Shown piece after piece: positions 5,945-12,715 of a DNA stretch of 64,000 nucleotides. The position numbers and the translations under genes are program-made. The notes under the pieces are model-generated. The model was not told where the DNA came from. It saw nothing but the letters and a program-made list of their open reading frames with translations, and ran no database searches. The stretch's first letter is position 1; each line of letters begins with the position of its first letter. The stretch spans positions 62,001-126,000 of the forward strand of contig NZ_JAINZO010000002.1 of the NCBI RefSeq assembly GCF_020179605.1. Direction: 5' to 3'. This DNA comes from Geomonas agri. GTDB lineage: Bacteria > Desulfobacterota > Desulfuromonadia > Geobacterales > Geobacteraceae.

Positions 5945-6042
5945 GCGAAAAGCCAGCTAGGGGAGTTCGCCAGAACTGAGACAGGTCGATTCCTGAACCC
6001 TTTGAACCTGATCCGGGTAGTACCGGCGTAGGGAAGCGGCGC
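5945..6042 (+). ncRNA. TPP riboswitch (THI element)
   Basis: The aptamer shows the conserved THI-box core: AGGGGAG near 5958, CTGAGACAGGT (about 5976), then ACCCTTTGAACCTGATC and GGGTAGTACCGGCGTAGGGAAG (to about 6036, quoted in parts). It lies between a promoter and an intrinsic terminator ahead of thiED, consistent with thiamine pyrophosphate causing premature termination. Confidence 0.95.
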
Positions 6043-6063
6043 GTACTCCGACCTTTTATCGTG

Positions 6064-9730: not shown

Positions 9731-9760
9731 ATTTGAGAGATCCGGCTCAATCTCTCAAAT
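9731..9760 (-). terminator. Hairpin spanning the stop codon of the cytochrome gene
   Basis: ATTTGAGAGAT / ATCTCTCAAAT is an 11-pair stem whose minus-strand left arm encodes the last codons of the cytochrome and whose loop region contains its TGA stop (9749-9747). Only a weak T-rich tail follows, so it may stabilise the 3' end rather than terminate. Confidence 0.5.
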
Positions 9761-10970
9761 GGCACTTATTACAGAGGCTTTTCTGAAAATTGGAGAAGCT
9801 CGTTACAGGTCTATCGTAAAAAGTCTTTGCTGTTTCAATGGAGAGACGTCCTTGGGAGTATTCAACAGGGACGCTGTTGTCGATGCCGGGATACATCCCT
9901 TCGTACACGAGGAAGGTGGACTGCGTGTTCCATCTAGTGCTCGCATCCCACCCGCTTGCGTGGGCCCTGTGACACGACAGGCACATAACGTTTTCGCCGC
10001 CGTTAGGACCACTCCGTTTAAGATCGGCAGATGCGACAACCGACTTCAACGACTTGTAATCCTTGGTGTTCAACTCGTATGGAACCATCGAAGTGTAAGA
10101 CGTGTCGTGGTTTCCACTTAGATCTCCTGAGCGCATGTATGAATTGTAGTTACTAACAATCTCATGCGAAAAGGTGGCTCTGACACCAGAGGGGTGTTTG
10201 TGCACGCCGGCAAGTCCGGGGTGACAGTTGAGACACCATTCCGACATACCACTTCCGTACGCGATCTGGGTATCGTGGCTGCTCTCCGACCTGTTGAAAA
10301 GACGTGGAGCAACAGCGGCAGGGGGATCTGCCGACAGGAGAGGGGCTCCTGAGACATTCCTGGGTAGGTACCCCTTCCCCGCGAGCAGGCGGTAGGTGCC
10401 AACCGACACATATGCGGTAGGTTCCGGGCTGTCGGGATAAGAGCCAGAAGCTATTATTGGGGGGCCGGAAACGCTGATTGACCCGTCGGCCAGTCGCCGG
10501 TAGTTGCCATGAGGATCATGGCAGCTGATACAGGTGAGGCTTGAACTGGGATAGTTTCCACCCGGAGAATAGGCAAAGGTGCTATCGGCCTCATACCCGA
10601 AGTCCGCTGCAACTATGTTATGTCCATGCCGCTCGCCACGGCTCAGTTCGTTTGCTCCGTTCAAGGTTGACCACGTGTACGTTTTCCTGAGCCAGCAAAA
10701 GTCTCCGCCAGAAGGAAGCTGAACACAGATGGAGAAGGTATTCAAATTGGTTGAAACATAATGCTTTGAGGGGATGGCAACCCCAATGGGGGCTTGGTGG
10801 CATGTAAGGCAGGTGGATCCGGCATCGGACCCGATCAGTTGGGGCGGGACGGTATGGCACCCCGAGCAGTTGCCTGTACCGCCGTTGTGGAAAATGTCAT
10901 CCCCCCTGCTTATCGCAACGTGTATAGATAAAGCCAACAAGACAGATGCCAGCAGCGTAATGGTTCTCAT
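9747..10970 (-). CDS. Periplasmic six-heme c-type cytochrome
   Basis: The 407-residue protein has an N-terminal signal peptide (about residues 1-22, hydrophobic TLLASVLLALSIHVAIS). It has six CxxCH heme-binding motifs: CSGCH (35-39), CLTCH (54-58), CISCH (147-151), CLNCH, CLSCH and CNKCH (400-404). CISCHDPHG is a phrasing common in Geobacter multiheme cytochromes. It is probably periplasmic or outer-surface and carries electrons during respiration; the specific partner cannot be told. It has no cytochrome neighbours. A structured RNA-like element lies about 345 bases upstream on the same strand. Confidence 0.9.
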   Translation of the reverse strand: MRTITLLASVLLALSIHVAISRGDDIFHNGGTGNCSGCHTVPPQLIGSDAGSTCLTCHQAPIGVAIPSKHYVSTNLNTFSICVQLPSGGDFCWLRKTYTWSTLNGANELSRGERHGHNIVAADFGYEADSTFAYSPGGNYPSSSLTCISCHDPHGNYRRLADGSISVSGPPIIASGSYPDSPEPTAYVSVGTYRLLAGKGYLPRNVSGAPLLSADPPAAVAPRLFNRSESSHDTQIAYGSGMSEWCLNCHPGLAGVHKHPSGVRATFSHEIVSNYNSYMRSGDLSGNHDTSYTSMVPYELNTKDYKSLKSVVASADLKRSGPNGGENVMCLSCHRAHASGWDASTRWNTQSTFLVYEGMYPGIDNSVPVEYSQGRLSIETAKTFYDRPVTSFSNFQKSLCNKCHLRD

Positions 10971-11314
10971 TGCGCCCCCCGATTACTGCTCACAGTGCGT
11001 ACACTTATCACAGAGTCCGAGTGCAACGTCGACGGCATGTAAATGTTTTATATTCTCCTATTTTCCCACTCCACTGCACCCTGTCAACTACAGCAGGGCG
11101 CCTGATCATGGCCAGGGTCCGGTACCCGCGTCACAAACGACTTTATGACAAAAGCAGGGCTAGGCTTGTGAGAACTGTCGCTGTACTTGAGACTGTGCTC
11201 TGCTAACTTCCAGCCTGTCGCAGCAGGCCTGCCGCCAAAGGTTTTATGTTTTTTTTGACAGTTAACTTCTGAGGGGGGATGTCATGAGCTTAAATCAGAT
11301 ATAACCCCAAAGTG
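10971..11314. other. Long untranslated region upstream of the cytochrome
   Basis: No supported coding frame on either strand. It separates the terminator of element A from the cytochrome ATG, so it may hold the cytochrome's own promoter or be a long 5' leader. I could not pick out a strong promoter. Confidence 0.4.
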
Positions 11315-11347
11315 AAAAGGCCCGCCGAGATGGCGGGCCTTCTTTGT
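11315..11347 (-). terminator. Terminator closing element A
   Basis: GGCCCGCC-ATCTC-GGCGGGCC followed by TTTT on the minus strand. The plus strand also ends in a T-rich run, so it could act in both directions. Confidence 0.8.
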
Positions 11348-11502
11348 TGCGTCTAACTGGGTACCCTTTTCAAGGGTGGTTGCCAGTGCCCGTGGGCACC
11401 GGGAGGTTAACAGCTTCAGGTTGTGAGATTCCGAATCGGTGGAGTTTCTTTGATGCTGATTACCTCCTTTTTTCCGAGATCCCTCTTAGCTAGCTAGCTG
11501 AG
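11315..11502 (-). ncRNA. Unidentified structured RNA-like element A (leader or small RNA)
   Basis: Read on the minus strand it starts with the palindrome CTCAGCTAGCTAGCTAAG. It continues with a conserved box (TCTCGGAAAAAAGGAGGTAA then TCAGCATC), then hairpins GTGCCC/GGGCAC and ACCCTT/AAGGGT, and ends in a perfect terminator stem GGCCCGCC/GGCGGGCC with a T-rich tail. A paralogue with the same order of parts but different stem sequences lies at 12314-12503. A possible -10 (TATGTT) lies just before the palindrome. I do not recognise the class: it is not an obvious c-di-GMP, cobalamin or TPP aptamer. Confidence 0.6.
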
Positions 11503-11643
11503 TCAAACATAGCATCAGTGACGGCAAAGAAACAGTCTGTCCAAAAAAAATTTTTCCGGATATACTGCTTAAGTTGCCTCTCCTCTGAGTTTGAACCCGC
11601 TAACATTACCATCCCACTGCCAGACCTCTGAGTATATCCTCAT

Positions 11644-12177
11644 TTACTGATACAGAGCCGCCATCTGCCGTCCCGGACCGAAAGTACCAGGCTCGGAACT
11701 CGTCACCTGTACGCTTCCGTTCACTTTCATCGCCTGGAACTGGGTCGCGTTGTTCCCCTGCCGCAGTAACGCCACCGAATTGCCGCTCTTCACGTTCCAG
11801 TCGATGGTGAGGGTGTCGAGATAGGTGTCACCATGGTAGCGGTTGAAGGTGTAACGCAGCATGTCGCCGCTCTTTTGGGCGTGCACCTTGAAAGTATCGC
11901 CGTTTTCGCTGTACTGGAAGTCCTTCTCTCCCTGGGCCACGGGGTTATGCCCGCTCCAGAACTCGATGGTGTTGAAAACAACAAAGTCAACCAGCGCCGA
12001 TATCTGGTAAACAGGGACGATGATGAATGCCCATGTCACCAGGCTGCGCAGGAACTTGTCGCTTACCTGTCCGTTAACCTGATACACCTTCTTAGTGAGC
12101 GCCATCTTGCCGTAGCACCCCTGCAGGGAAACCATGGCGACCACCATGGCAAGTAGTGCAGCTGTCACTCGTTTCAT
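11644..12177 (-). CDS. DUF3332-type lipoprotein of unknown function
   Basis: A 177-residue protein with a lipoprotein signal: MKRVTAALLAMVVAMVSLQGC, lipobox LQGC with the modified cysteine at residue 21. A hydrophobic stretch around residues 47-68 (LVTWAFIIVPVYQISALVDF) and the FNTIEFWSGHNP phrase match the DUF3332 group of bacterial lipoproteins as I recall it. The function is unknown; it should be anchored at the envelope. It is transcribed in the same direction as the cytochrome downstream, and RNA-like elements lie both upstream (B) and downstream (A) of it. Confidence 0.7.
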   Translation of the reverse strand: MKRVTAALLAMVVAMVSLQGCYGKMALTKKVYQVNGQVSDKFLRSLVTWAFIIVPVYQISALVDFVVFNTIEFWSGHNPVAQGEKDFQYSENGDTFKVHAQKSGDMLRYTFNRYHGDTYLDTLTIDWNVKSGNSVALLRQGNNATQFQAMKVNGSVQVTSSEPGTFGPGRQMAALYQ

Positions 12178-12313
12178 GACTCCGTCCTCCTTGAGTGTTG
12201 AATGTAATAGGGAAATGTTGCTATCCCGACCCTACCAATATAGCAGAAGACTCTCTCTTCTTGTTAAGGAAGTTGAGGCCACTCCTCAAATCCGTGTCTA
12301 TAACAGTAACAAT

Positions 12314-12352
12314 GAAAAAGAGGCCCGCTGTTGTTCCGCAGGGCCTCTTCTT
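12314..12352 (-). terminator. Terminator closing element B
   Basis: AAGAGGCCC / GGGCCTCTT arms with a GC-rich inner part, followed on the minus strand by TTTTTC. Confidence 0.8.
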
Positions 12353-12503
12353 TTACTCGATCCCCTCGTTACAGGGGTCATCTCGACGCTTGCGACGTCG
12401 AAGCTGGTACAGCTGTTTCGTAATTAGAATCCTCTTCAGTGGAAGTTACCTCGATGCTGCTACCTCCTTTTCCGAGACATTCTGTTACAGCTAGCTAGCT
12501 GAG
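12314..12503 (-). ncRNA. Unidentified structured RNA-like element B (paralogue of element A)
   Basis: On the minus strand: CTCAGCTAGCTAGCTG palindrome (to about 12488), conserved box TCTCGGAAAAGGAGGTAGC then AGCATC, hairpins TCGACG/CGTCGA and CCCCT/AGGGG, then a terminator stem AAGAGGCCC/GGGCCTCTT with TTTT. Order and spacing match element A while stem sequences differ, as expected of a conserved RNA fold. TATATT lies just upstream as a -10 candidate. It precedes the DUF3332 gene by about 135 bases. Confidence 0.6.
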
Positions 12504-12715
12504 AGTAATATACCACCTGCTTGTAAAATTTACAGAGAGCTGCAACATTTTTTATGGTTCATGCACGCCGGGTTGACCGTGACCGTGCGCCGTCAGACTG
12601 GACTTCGAAGTGGCGGGTGCTAAAATCCGTGGGTGCCTTAACCCGGATTAACCATTCTTGACAACGACGGGCGCCCGCATGGCGAAAGCGCCTCTGCCGT
12701 ACCCAGGGGAGAGCC
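12504..12715. other. Spacer upstream of the M23 peptidase gene
   Basis: No gene seen. It holds the divergent control regions of element B (minus) and the peptidase gene (plus). TTGACC and TTGACA words occur but without a good -10 partner. Confidence 0.35.

Follow-up and report, generated by a model that had tools for sequence, protein, structure and literature searches.

Two similar elements lie on the minus strand of a 64,000-nucleotide (nt) stretch of the genome of Geomonas agri, a soil bacterium that reduces metals (contig NZ_JAINZO010000002.1, positions 62,001 to 126,000; hereafter the window, numbered from its first letter), and they raise the question of whether they control the genes beside them or are genes in their own right. 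A preliminary description of this DNA had offered either a riboswitch-like leader class or duplicated small RNAs (sRNAs). Our best reading, which we hold with about even confidence, is that the elements are paralogous standalone RNA genes (types A and B) of an order-wide family, and that they most likely are small structured RNAs and mRNAs at the same time, with translation that is low and, by design, sensitive to initiation factor 3 (IF3). Comparison of related sequences brings out the family, the standalone position, the upstream region, the hairpins, the terminator-like end and a tiny open reading frame (ORF) with its class of start codon behind AAAGGAGG.

Two copies of an order-wide RNA family

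Inspection of the sequence confirmed the two minus-strand elements of about 190 nt, with a common order of parts, different stem sequences and a terminator-like end, at the places where they had been reported. In each, a 5' palindrome AGCTAGCTAGCT is followed by a box (CTCGGAAAA..GGAGGTA..CAGCATC), by two hairpins and, at the end, by a terminator-like hairpin rich in GC. The predicted transcripts, both of ~190 nt, are copy A (type A, 11309..11503) and copy B (type B, 12312..12505); these and all further features of the two copies are on the minus strand. The copies of relatives align at both places, diverging past the terminator in the case of copy A, and both are matched by the two covariance models introduced below. 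The stems of copy A are CCGGTGC/GCACTGG, ACCCTT/AAGGGT and, in the terminator, AAGGCCCGCC/GGCGGGCCTT; those of copy B are TCGACG/CGTCGA, CCCCT/AGGGG and AAGAGGCCC../..GGGCCTCTT. Both copies fold better than their dinucleotide shuffles (z -4.14 for copy A and -3.67 for copy B; 0 of 200 shuffles in each case).

The preliminary description had suggested searching Rfam and building a covariance model from the elements; the former gave no confident match over the elements and the latter revealed an order-wide family with covariation. At the gathering threshold, Rfam 15 reported in the whole window only a TPP riboswitch and a tRNA, both away from the elements, and a permissive scan of 11200-12620 gave MicC as its best match, at 30.2 bits against a cut-off of 90 bits. 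Over 20 loci with other copies, no Rfam family was reported over the elements, only a tRNA in one locus (L221). The TPP riboswitch of the window (72 bits) is located at 5949-6051 on the plus strand, upstream of thiC.

As a DNA pattern, the box matched in 9 of 117 genomes (own genome included), all of one genus. At E ≤ 0.1, a covariance model made from 12 copies (R1) matched 43 of 293 genomes, among them every one of the 19 members of the own genus. A second model made from 43 diverse copies (R2) matched 133 of the 141 Geobacterales genomes at E ≤ 0.01 and 110 of the 141 at E ≤ 1e-10, its training sequences coming from some of the genomes counted. There are one to eight matches per matched genome of the order (R2, E ≤ 0.01), and the own genome has two copies. 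When 297 genomes of the phylum were scanned with R2, 143 had a match at E ≤ 0.01, order members included. The best match outside the order reached 29.0 bits (E 2.7e-8) and the rest of those listed stayed below 27 bits, as compared with 40-106 bits in the 110 stronger genomes of the order. Judged by their scores and not by reading their sequences, the matches outside the order are taken as background noise from short calibration, and the R2 scan gave nothing convincing outside Geobacterales.

A pattern scan of GTDB species genomes yielded 43 stretches, of which 33 look genuine (accepted from reading, R1, or agreement with R1 hits) and 10 look like chance matches inside coding genes (judged by reading and R1). 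The genuine-looking stretches come from Geomonas, Geotalea, Geomobilimonas, Geomesophilobacter and Geobacter, or from metagenome-assembled genomes titled Geobacter, Geobacteraceae, Desulfuromonadales or Deltaproteobacteria. Spread by phage or plasmid was considered for a single pattern match on a viral contig (L229) and rejected, without a search of the plasmid and phage collections: its first 260 bases hold no other feature of the family, and the match was taken as chance. Two Geomonas genomes carry a third, middle copy (L082, 5472-5676; L076, 5556-5697), in which the start codon discussed below is not recognisable in the case of L082.

The conserved box is the start region of a tiny ORF

When distant copies were aligned, codon-like variation became apparent. 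A tiny ORF starts in the box: AAAGGAGG is followed, usually after 7-9 nt, by AUC, AUA or AUU (collectively AUH), and downstream of the start the consensus GA(N)GA(N)ACUCC(N)CC(N) corresponds to M-E/D/K-E/D/K-T-P-P. The anti-Shine-Dalgarno role once considered for this GGA-containing box was right in that the box concerns a Shine-Dalgarno (SD) sequence, but it is the real SD of an ORF starting at AUC or AUA and not a decoy. Copy A has an A-rich stretch with the SD GGAGG (11463..11473) and a small ORF (sORF) of 12 codons plus UGA (11416..11454), which starts at AUC and reads (M)KETPPIRNLTT. Copy B has its SD at 12463..12471 and an AUC-started sORF of 25 codons plus UGA (12378..12455) that reads (M)EVTSTEEDSNYETAVPASTSQASR.

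Among 102 distinct copies the start codon is AUC in 61, AUA in 18, AUU in 1, AUG in 20 and ACG in 1, and none is usable in the middle copy of L082. A conserved AUU, AUC or AUA behind a strong SD, the kind of start that IF3 discriminates against, is found in 80 of the 102. The distance between SD and start is 7-9 nt in 73 of the 80 AUH copies and 10-13 nt in 15 of the 20 AUG copies (median 8 versus 11; Mann-Whitney p 2e-4, relatedness of the copies being ignored). The starts of two copies (L078 and L203) were set by a hand rule. By eye, four f4 loci (L212, L213, L215 and L220) contain two type A mini-ORFs in tandem, the first with AUG and the second with AUC.

Signs of translation

The predicted peptides are 11-25 amino acids long in 92 of 101 copies, with extremes of 8 and 67, and frequently start with M-E-D/E-T-P-P; 69 of the 101 have Thr-Pro-Pro (TPP) among their first 8 residues. 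Examples of type A peptides are IKETPPIRNLTT in copy A and MEDTPPGWFPK in L188, and of type B peptides IEVTSTEEDSNYETAVPASTSQASR in copy B and IEEVSPENHGAAETRQAVRPE in L190. Over the 101 copies, stops in the next 10 codons number 2 in frame 0, 33 in frame +1 and 42 in frame +2. The similarity of differing codons in frame 0 was 0.14, compared to -0.57 (standard deviation 0.30) for column permutations, of which 2 in 300 were as high (43 unique rows); the antisense frames gave -0.98, -0.10 and -1.25 in the same test. For type A the similarity was 1.30 versus -0.07 (standard deviation 0.60), with 3 of 300 permutations as high (47 unique rows). Single-base codon differences in type A were distributed over the codon positions as 460:272:2508, and the ratio of nonsynonymous to synonymous change (pN/pS) was 0.25, or 0.56 once the selected TPP codons were omitted. 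For Geomonas type B it was 0.51 (13 copies, 12 distinct). The frame, codon-substitution and stop statistics support translation of the tiny ORF, and in this respect sequence comparison agrees with what is expected of a dual-function sRNA. A type I toxin-antitoxin system was considered and rejected, as the 101 peptides have a mean hydropathy of -1.02 (range -2.57 to -0.12) versus the hydrophobic membrane peptide of such systems.

The RNAs could be plain micro-peptide mRNAs, in which the peptide is the sole product, the hairpins stabilise the transcript and the weak start sets a low dose. This would account for the conservation of M-E-D/E-T-P-P-x in an open frame over the order, and AUG starts in some lineages agree with it. 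Type B peptides, however, have little in common with those of type A, and the constraints described next also bear on this explanation.

Constraint on the RNA itself

Hairpin 1 (11383..11402 in copy A; 12383..12401 in copy B, within the end of the sORF) and hairpin 2 (11363..11377 in copy A, CCCUU-GAA-AAGGG; 12362..12377 in copy B) were placed by folding and covariation. In these two hairpins 9 of 10 pairs have changes on both sides (102 distinct rows), and none of 500 shuffles reached the covariation score observed for the whole structure, in an alignment that was fitted to the model. A conserved structured RNA with changed, still-paired stems, as had been proposed from the two copies, is thereby borne out across the family.

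A further helix, P1, pairs the region upstream of the SD with codons 7-12. In copy A its 5' strand lies at 11476..11483 (approximate, with irregular pairing) and its 3' strand near 11425-11431, inside the sORF. In copy B, AGAAU..CUC pairs with GAGGAUUCU (5' strand 12474..12483, 3' strand 12426-12434; fold and pairing test). In 42 sequences, the pairing of a copy with its own partner strand was better than that with swapped ones (z -5.06; 0 of 5000 swaps). Helix P2 is formed by GGAG of the SD with aCUCC of codons 4-5 (in copy A the 3' strand CUCC is at 11441-11444, inside the sORF) and is paired in 93.9% of cells. Of the 69 TPP copies, 66 use ACU for Thr, as compared with 16 of 142 Thr codons in six genes of the window, which keeps the complementarity to the SD. 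The third base of the first Pro codon (CCA 52, CCG 17) and of the second (CCG 38, CCA 16, CCT 10, CCC 5) varies while the Thr codon is fixed, as P2 predicts. These results go part of the way towards showing that the start region is inside P1 and that the SD is able to pair with codons 4-5.

The synonymous constraint on Thr, the covariation of P1 and the hairpins, and an ORF far shorter than the RNA of ~190 nt all speak against the peptide as sole product and suggest that the RNA itself matters; we consider plain micro-peptide mRNAs unlikely, though a serious alternative. Alternatively, under EF-P limitation T-P-P(-G) would stall ribosomes at codons 5-7, and this stall would open P1 and switch the RNA. 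PPG stalls ribosomes without EF-P, TPP is as frequent as given above and the 3' strand of P1 is just downstream of it. However, Geomonas type B copies are without PP, Geomonas type A peptides have PPI, PPN, PPQ or PPK and not PPG, and pairing with the SD may be part of the reason why the C bases are conserved, so that we regard a polyproline sensor as improbable.

Near invariance of AGGAGG would also suit an sRNA of the CsrB/RsmY kind that sequesters CsrA, an option raised in the preliminary description, and the available text of two papers has CsrB-like sRNAs predicted, not shown, in G. sulfurreducens (PMC11934962, PMC5568370). GGA is hardly enriched, however, with 5.0 per RNA versus 4.1 in mononucleotide shuffles, and in the alignment the conserved GGA are at the SD and in the hairpin 1 stem, not in many loop motifs. 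CsrA sequestration is therefore extremely unlikely in our judgement.

The 5' palindrome or hairpin P0, AGCTAGCTAGCT in both copies (11488..11499 in copy A, 12489..12500 in copy B), is replaced by other perfect palindromes in relatives; 56 of 103 copies carry one of 10-16 bases close to the 5' end, and its sequence takes several forms. The GGAGGU/ACCUCC helix of copy A is preserved among the A copies of Geomonas and not elsewhere. In the copy A of L074 and L079, a AAGAGTAAAGA-like segment is tandemly duplicated between the 5' palindrome and the SD.

Upstream region, terminator-like end and neighbouring genes

An A/T tract and an extended -10 element, TGnTATAnT, are common to 82 non-redundant upstream sequences, in an alignment that was anchored on the -10 and a dyad, the A/T tract not being part of the anchoring score. 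In copy A, the A/T tract and the ACAGACTGT dyad form a predicted promoter region at 11532..11555, followed by the predicted extended -10 TGCTATGTT at 11506..11514. In copy B, the predicted extended -10 is TGGTATATT at 12507..12515, from the upstream alignment and the sequence. Dyad plus -10 was rejected as a marker of a regulon: in the own genome the pattern matches the upstream region of copy A only, once per strand. At the other end are the terminator-like hairpins of copy A (11317..11341, from the sequence) and copy B (12318..12349, from the fold), both with a short, interrupted U-tract.

Between the two RNA genes is a DUF3332 gene (11644..12177, minus strand; PF11810, E 4.4e-41), and downstream of copy A a multihaem cytochrome c gene (9747..10970, minus strand; domain annotation). 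Each element had been described as lying upstream of one envelope-linked gene. They do lie upstream of DUF3332 and the cytochrome, but not in the manner of a leader, as ~135 nt separate the terminator end from the DUF3332 start and ~340 nt from the cytochrome start; the DUF3332 upstream region has its own TGCTATATT sequence. Of 20 Geomonas loci, at least 11 retain the arrangement copy B, DUF3332-cluster ORF, copy A, in a count whose picker of neighbouring ORFs sometimes took the wrong strand. In this genus, 28 of 34 loci have their next downstream gene on the same strand as the RNA. Outside Geomonas other genes lie beside the RNA, and an opposite-strand gene comes next downstream in 32 of 48 called loci, in 20 of those 32 within 100 nt (calls of a simple home-made codon-model gene caller, which left 18 of 66 loci without a call). 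Differing neighbours and an opposite-facing next gene point therefore to standalone RNA genes. With its context and its conserved upstream region, the family looks like a set of independent small RNA genes, which fits the earlier option of duplicated small RNAs of about 190 nt. Sequence and context would also suit a dual-function sRNA with a promoter and terminator of its own, but the consensus scan described below flagged neither end.

The same data bear on a cis-acting leader or attenuator whose conditional terminator controls the next gene, the riboswitch-like alternative of the preliminary description. Such a leader would explain why a DUF3332-cluster ORF follows copy B in those Geomonas loci, mostly ~135 nt away, and in two loci that belong to genus g24 a DEAD-box helicase ORF on the same strand follows type B, 78 and 146 nt away (L186 and L189; helicase identified by Pfam in L186 and by sequence in L189). 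It does not agree with the opposite-strand genes outside Geomonas or with the own TGCTATATT of DUF3332, and no anti-terminator pairing was found in the minimum-free-energy folds of copies A and B; we consider a leader very improbable.

Ordinary trans-acting sRNAs of the Hfq type, with the GGAGG/ACUCC segments as seeds and an incidental ORF, would have just such a standalone position, conserved upstream region and terminator-like ends, and there are two paralogues and an Hfq gene in the own genome (81.9 bits). Frame-specific substitutions, the distribution of stops and start-codon conservation argue against an incidental ORF, as does the short, interrupted U-tract against this type of sRNA, which we think is an improbable explanation.

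Several neighbourhoods outside the window were recorded. A uroporphyrinogen decarboxylase cluster (L054, L056, L059, L068) and a ferrochelatase cluster (L057, L059) mark a haem-biosynthesis neighbourhood, and a radical-SAM-like protein was seen by eye near the RNA gene in L057, L059, L068 and L069. An FKBP-type isomerase is found beside type B in L186 and L205 (by Pfam) and in L066, L067 and L093 (by clustering). For the FKBP and DEAD-box neighbours a link to cold shock is conceivable.

A start site of the infC kind and a proposed mechanism

AUH start codons are rare in bacteria, infC being the textbook case. The infC of the own genome (L230) reads AGGAGG-TGGCGTC-AUA GCU AAA; neither the 40 codons preceding AUA nor the 12 following it contain an in-frame AUG, GUG or UUG. 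The AUA start is 7 nt after the SD in all 30 Geobacterales loci (L230 and L231-L259, the own locus and those of 29 of 30 genomes, G128 being without a match); the SD is AGGAGG in 28 and AGGGGG in 2. The 40 codons upstream of AUA lack in-frame AUG, GUG and UUG in 28 of the 30, L240 and L244 having UUG 15-19 codons upstream, and GUG is present at codon 6 in 7 of the 30. According to the available text of two papers, rising IF3 disfavours weak third-base pairs such as AUU/CAU in vitro (Katoh and Suga, PMC10158994), and in S. aureus conserved AUA/AUU starts behind extended SDs hold translation low, infC starting at AUA (PMC13009471). At the level of sequence, the sORFs share the design of infC, a strong SD, ~7 nt and an AUH start.

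We propose the following mechanism, in which transcription, occlusion of the SD, the response to IF3 and any activity in trans are what we infer. Transcription from the conserved upstream region would give an RNA of ~190 nt, often with a 5' hairpin. Two features would keep initiation low: a start codon that IF3 discriminates against (or else a long spacing), and occlusion of the SD in P1/P2. A 30S subunit capturing the SD would mostly meet AUC or AUA, and IF3 would reject most such complexes. Under permissive initiation the ribosome would open P1/P2 and make the short peptide, and the rate of starting, of P1/P2 opening and of peptide making would follow initiation stringency (IF3 level, free 30S), while hairpins 1 and 2 and the terminator would protect the 3' part. 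The outcome would be a dual-function RNA that yields a short peptide and is itself a structured RNA, its folded or translated state depending on the read-out of initiation. In a more far-reaching and tentative form of this proposal, a trans-acting sRNA family would sense initiation stringency: the AUC/AUA micro-ORF, matched to the AUA of infC, would be read only at a low ratio of IF3 to 30S, and reading would refold the RNA and free a regulatory activity, the peptide or both.

Several points weigh against the dual-function, IF3-sensitive reading. That sORF translation follows IF3 is deduced by analogy with infC. AUG starts in some lineages mean that a non-AUG start is not obligatory; the ORF picker penalised GUG, UUG, CUG and ACG starts, and an in-frame UUG is present beside AUG in 2 copies (L199, L203). 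The codon statistics pool related copies and are therefore strong indications and not exact probabilities, and type A was chosen for TPP. Under stricter de-replication, the P1 test gave only moderate support (z -2.15; 98 of 5000 swaps as good; 38 sequences), and the 4 pairs of P2 hardly vary, so that covariation says little about them. A candidate pseudoknot P3, in which the spacer between SD and start would pair with the segment that precedes hairpin 1, was rejected: it looked good in L057, L058 and L061 and in a first test (p 0.028), but failed under stricter de-replication (z -0.39; type A alone 0.25). Finally, a simple consensus promoter/terminator scan flagged neither RNA's promoter and no minus-strand terminator at either element, reporting the terminator stem of copy A on the plus strand only. 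The scan probably is silent because the -35 is non-consensus and the U-tract short; the answer to this point comes from the conservation of the ends alone.

Relation to known systems

In G. metallireducens, multicopy conserved intergenic sequences named Gmet_R have been reported, and the legend of Fig. S8(a) describes a palindrome-containing multicopy family in several Geobacter (PMC2700814). Compared by description only, these come from the same bacterial group and overlap with our family is possible; the available text does not mention an sORF of this kind. The Geobacter soli sRNA sGS077 is, at 187 nt, of suggestive length, the only property compared (PMC6013743). A literature search, mostly of titles and abstract openings, found no description of the family, which thus apparently is undescribed in Rfam and the literature searched, with an earlier listing as anonymous conserved intergenic sequences possible (PMC2700814). 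The staphylococcal genes cvfC1 and ccpN resemble the family in having a conserved AUH start and an extended SD that attenuate translation; they are ordinary protein genes (cvfC1 of 61 amino acids), and the available text describes no small structured RNA for them (PMC13009471).

Small structured RNAs that the Rfam searches did not recognise hold tiny ORFs, order-wide and in multiple copies, that mostly keep AUH starts behind a near-perfect SD, and IF3-dependent control beyond infC becomes testable in a group of which there are laboratory strains (Geobacter). Through its weak start, the sORF may report to the cell on the stringency with which ribosomes select start sites. ORF finders tend to skip such ORFs for their length and start codon, and conserved ORFs with unusual start codons may be concealed in small RNAs that seem to be non-coding.

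The dual-function sRNAs SgrS, RNAIII and PhrS come from independent small RNA genes with a terminator and a small ORF. The family, with its terminator-like end, appears to resemble them in these respects and differs in its AUH start and in an SD complementary to its own codons 4-5. The infC gene is similar at the start site, with a strong SD, 7 nt and an AUH start, but encodes a whole initiation factor, whereas the family has a tiny ORF in a terminator-ended small RNA.

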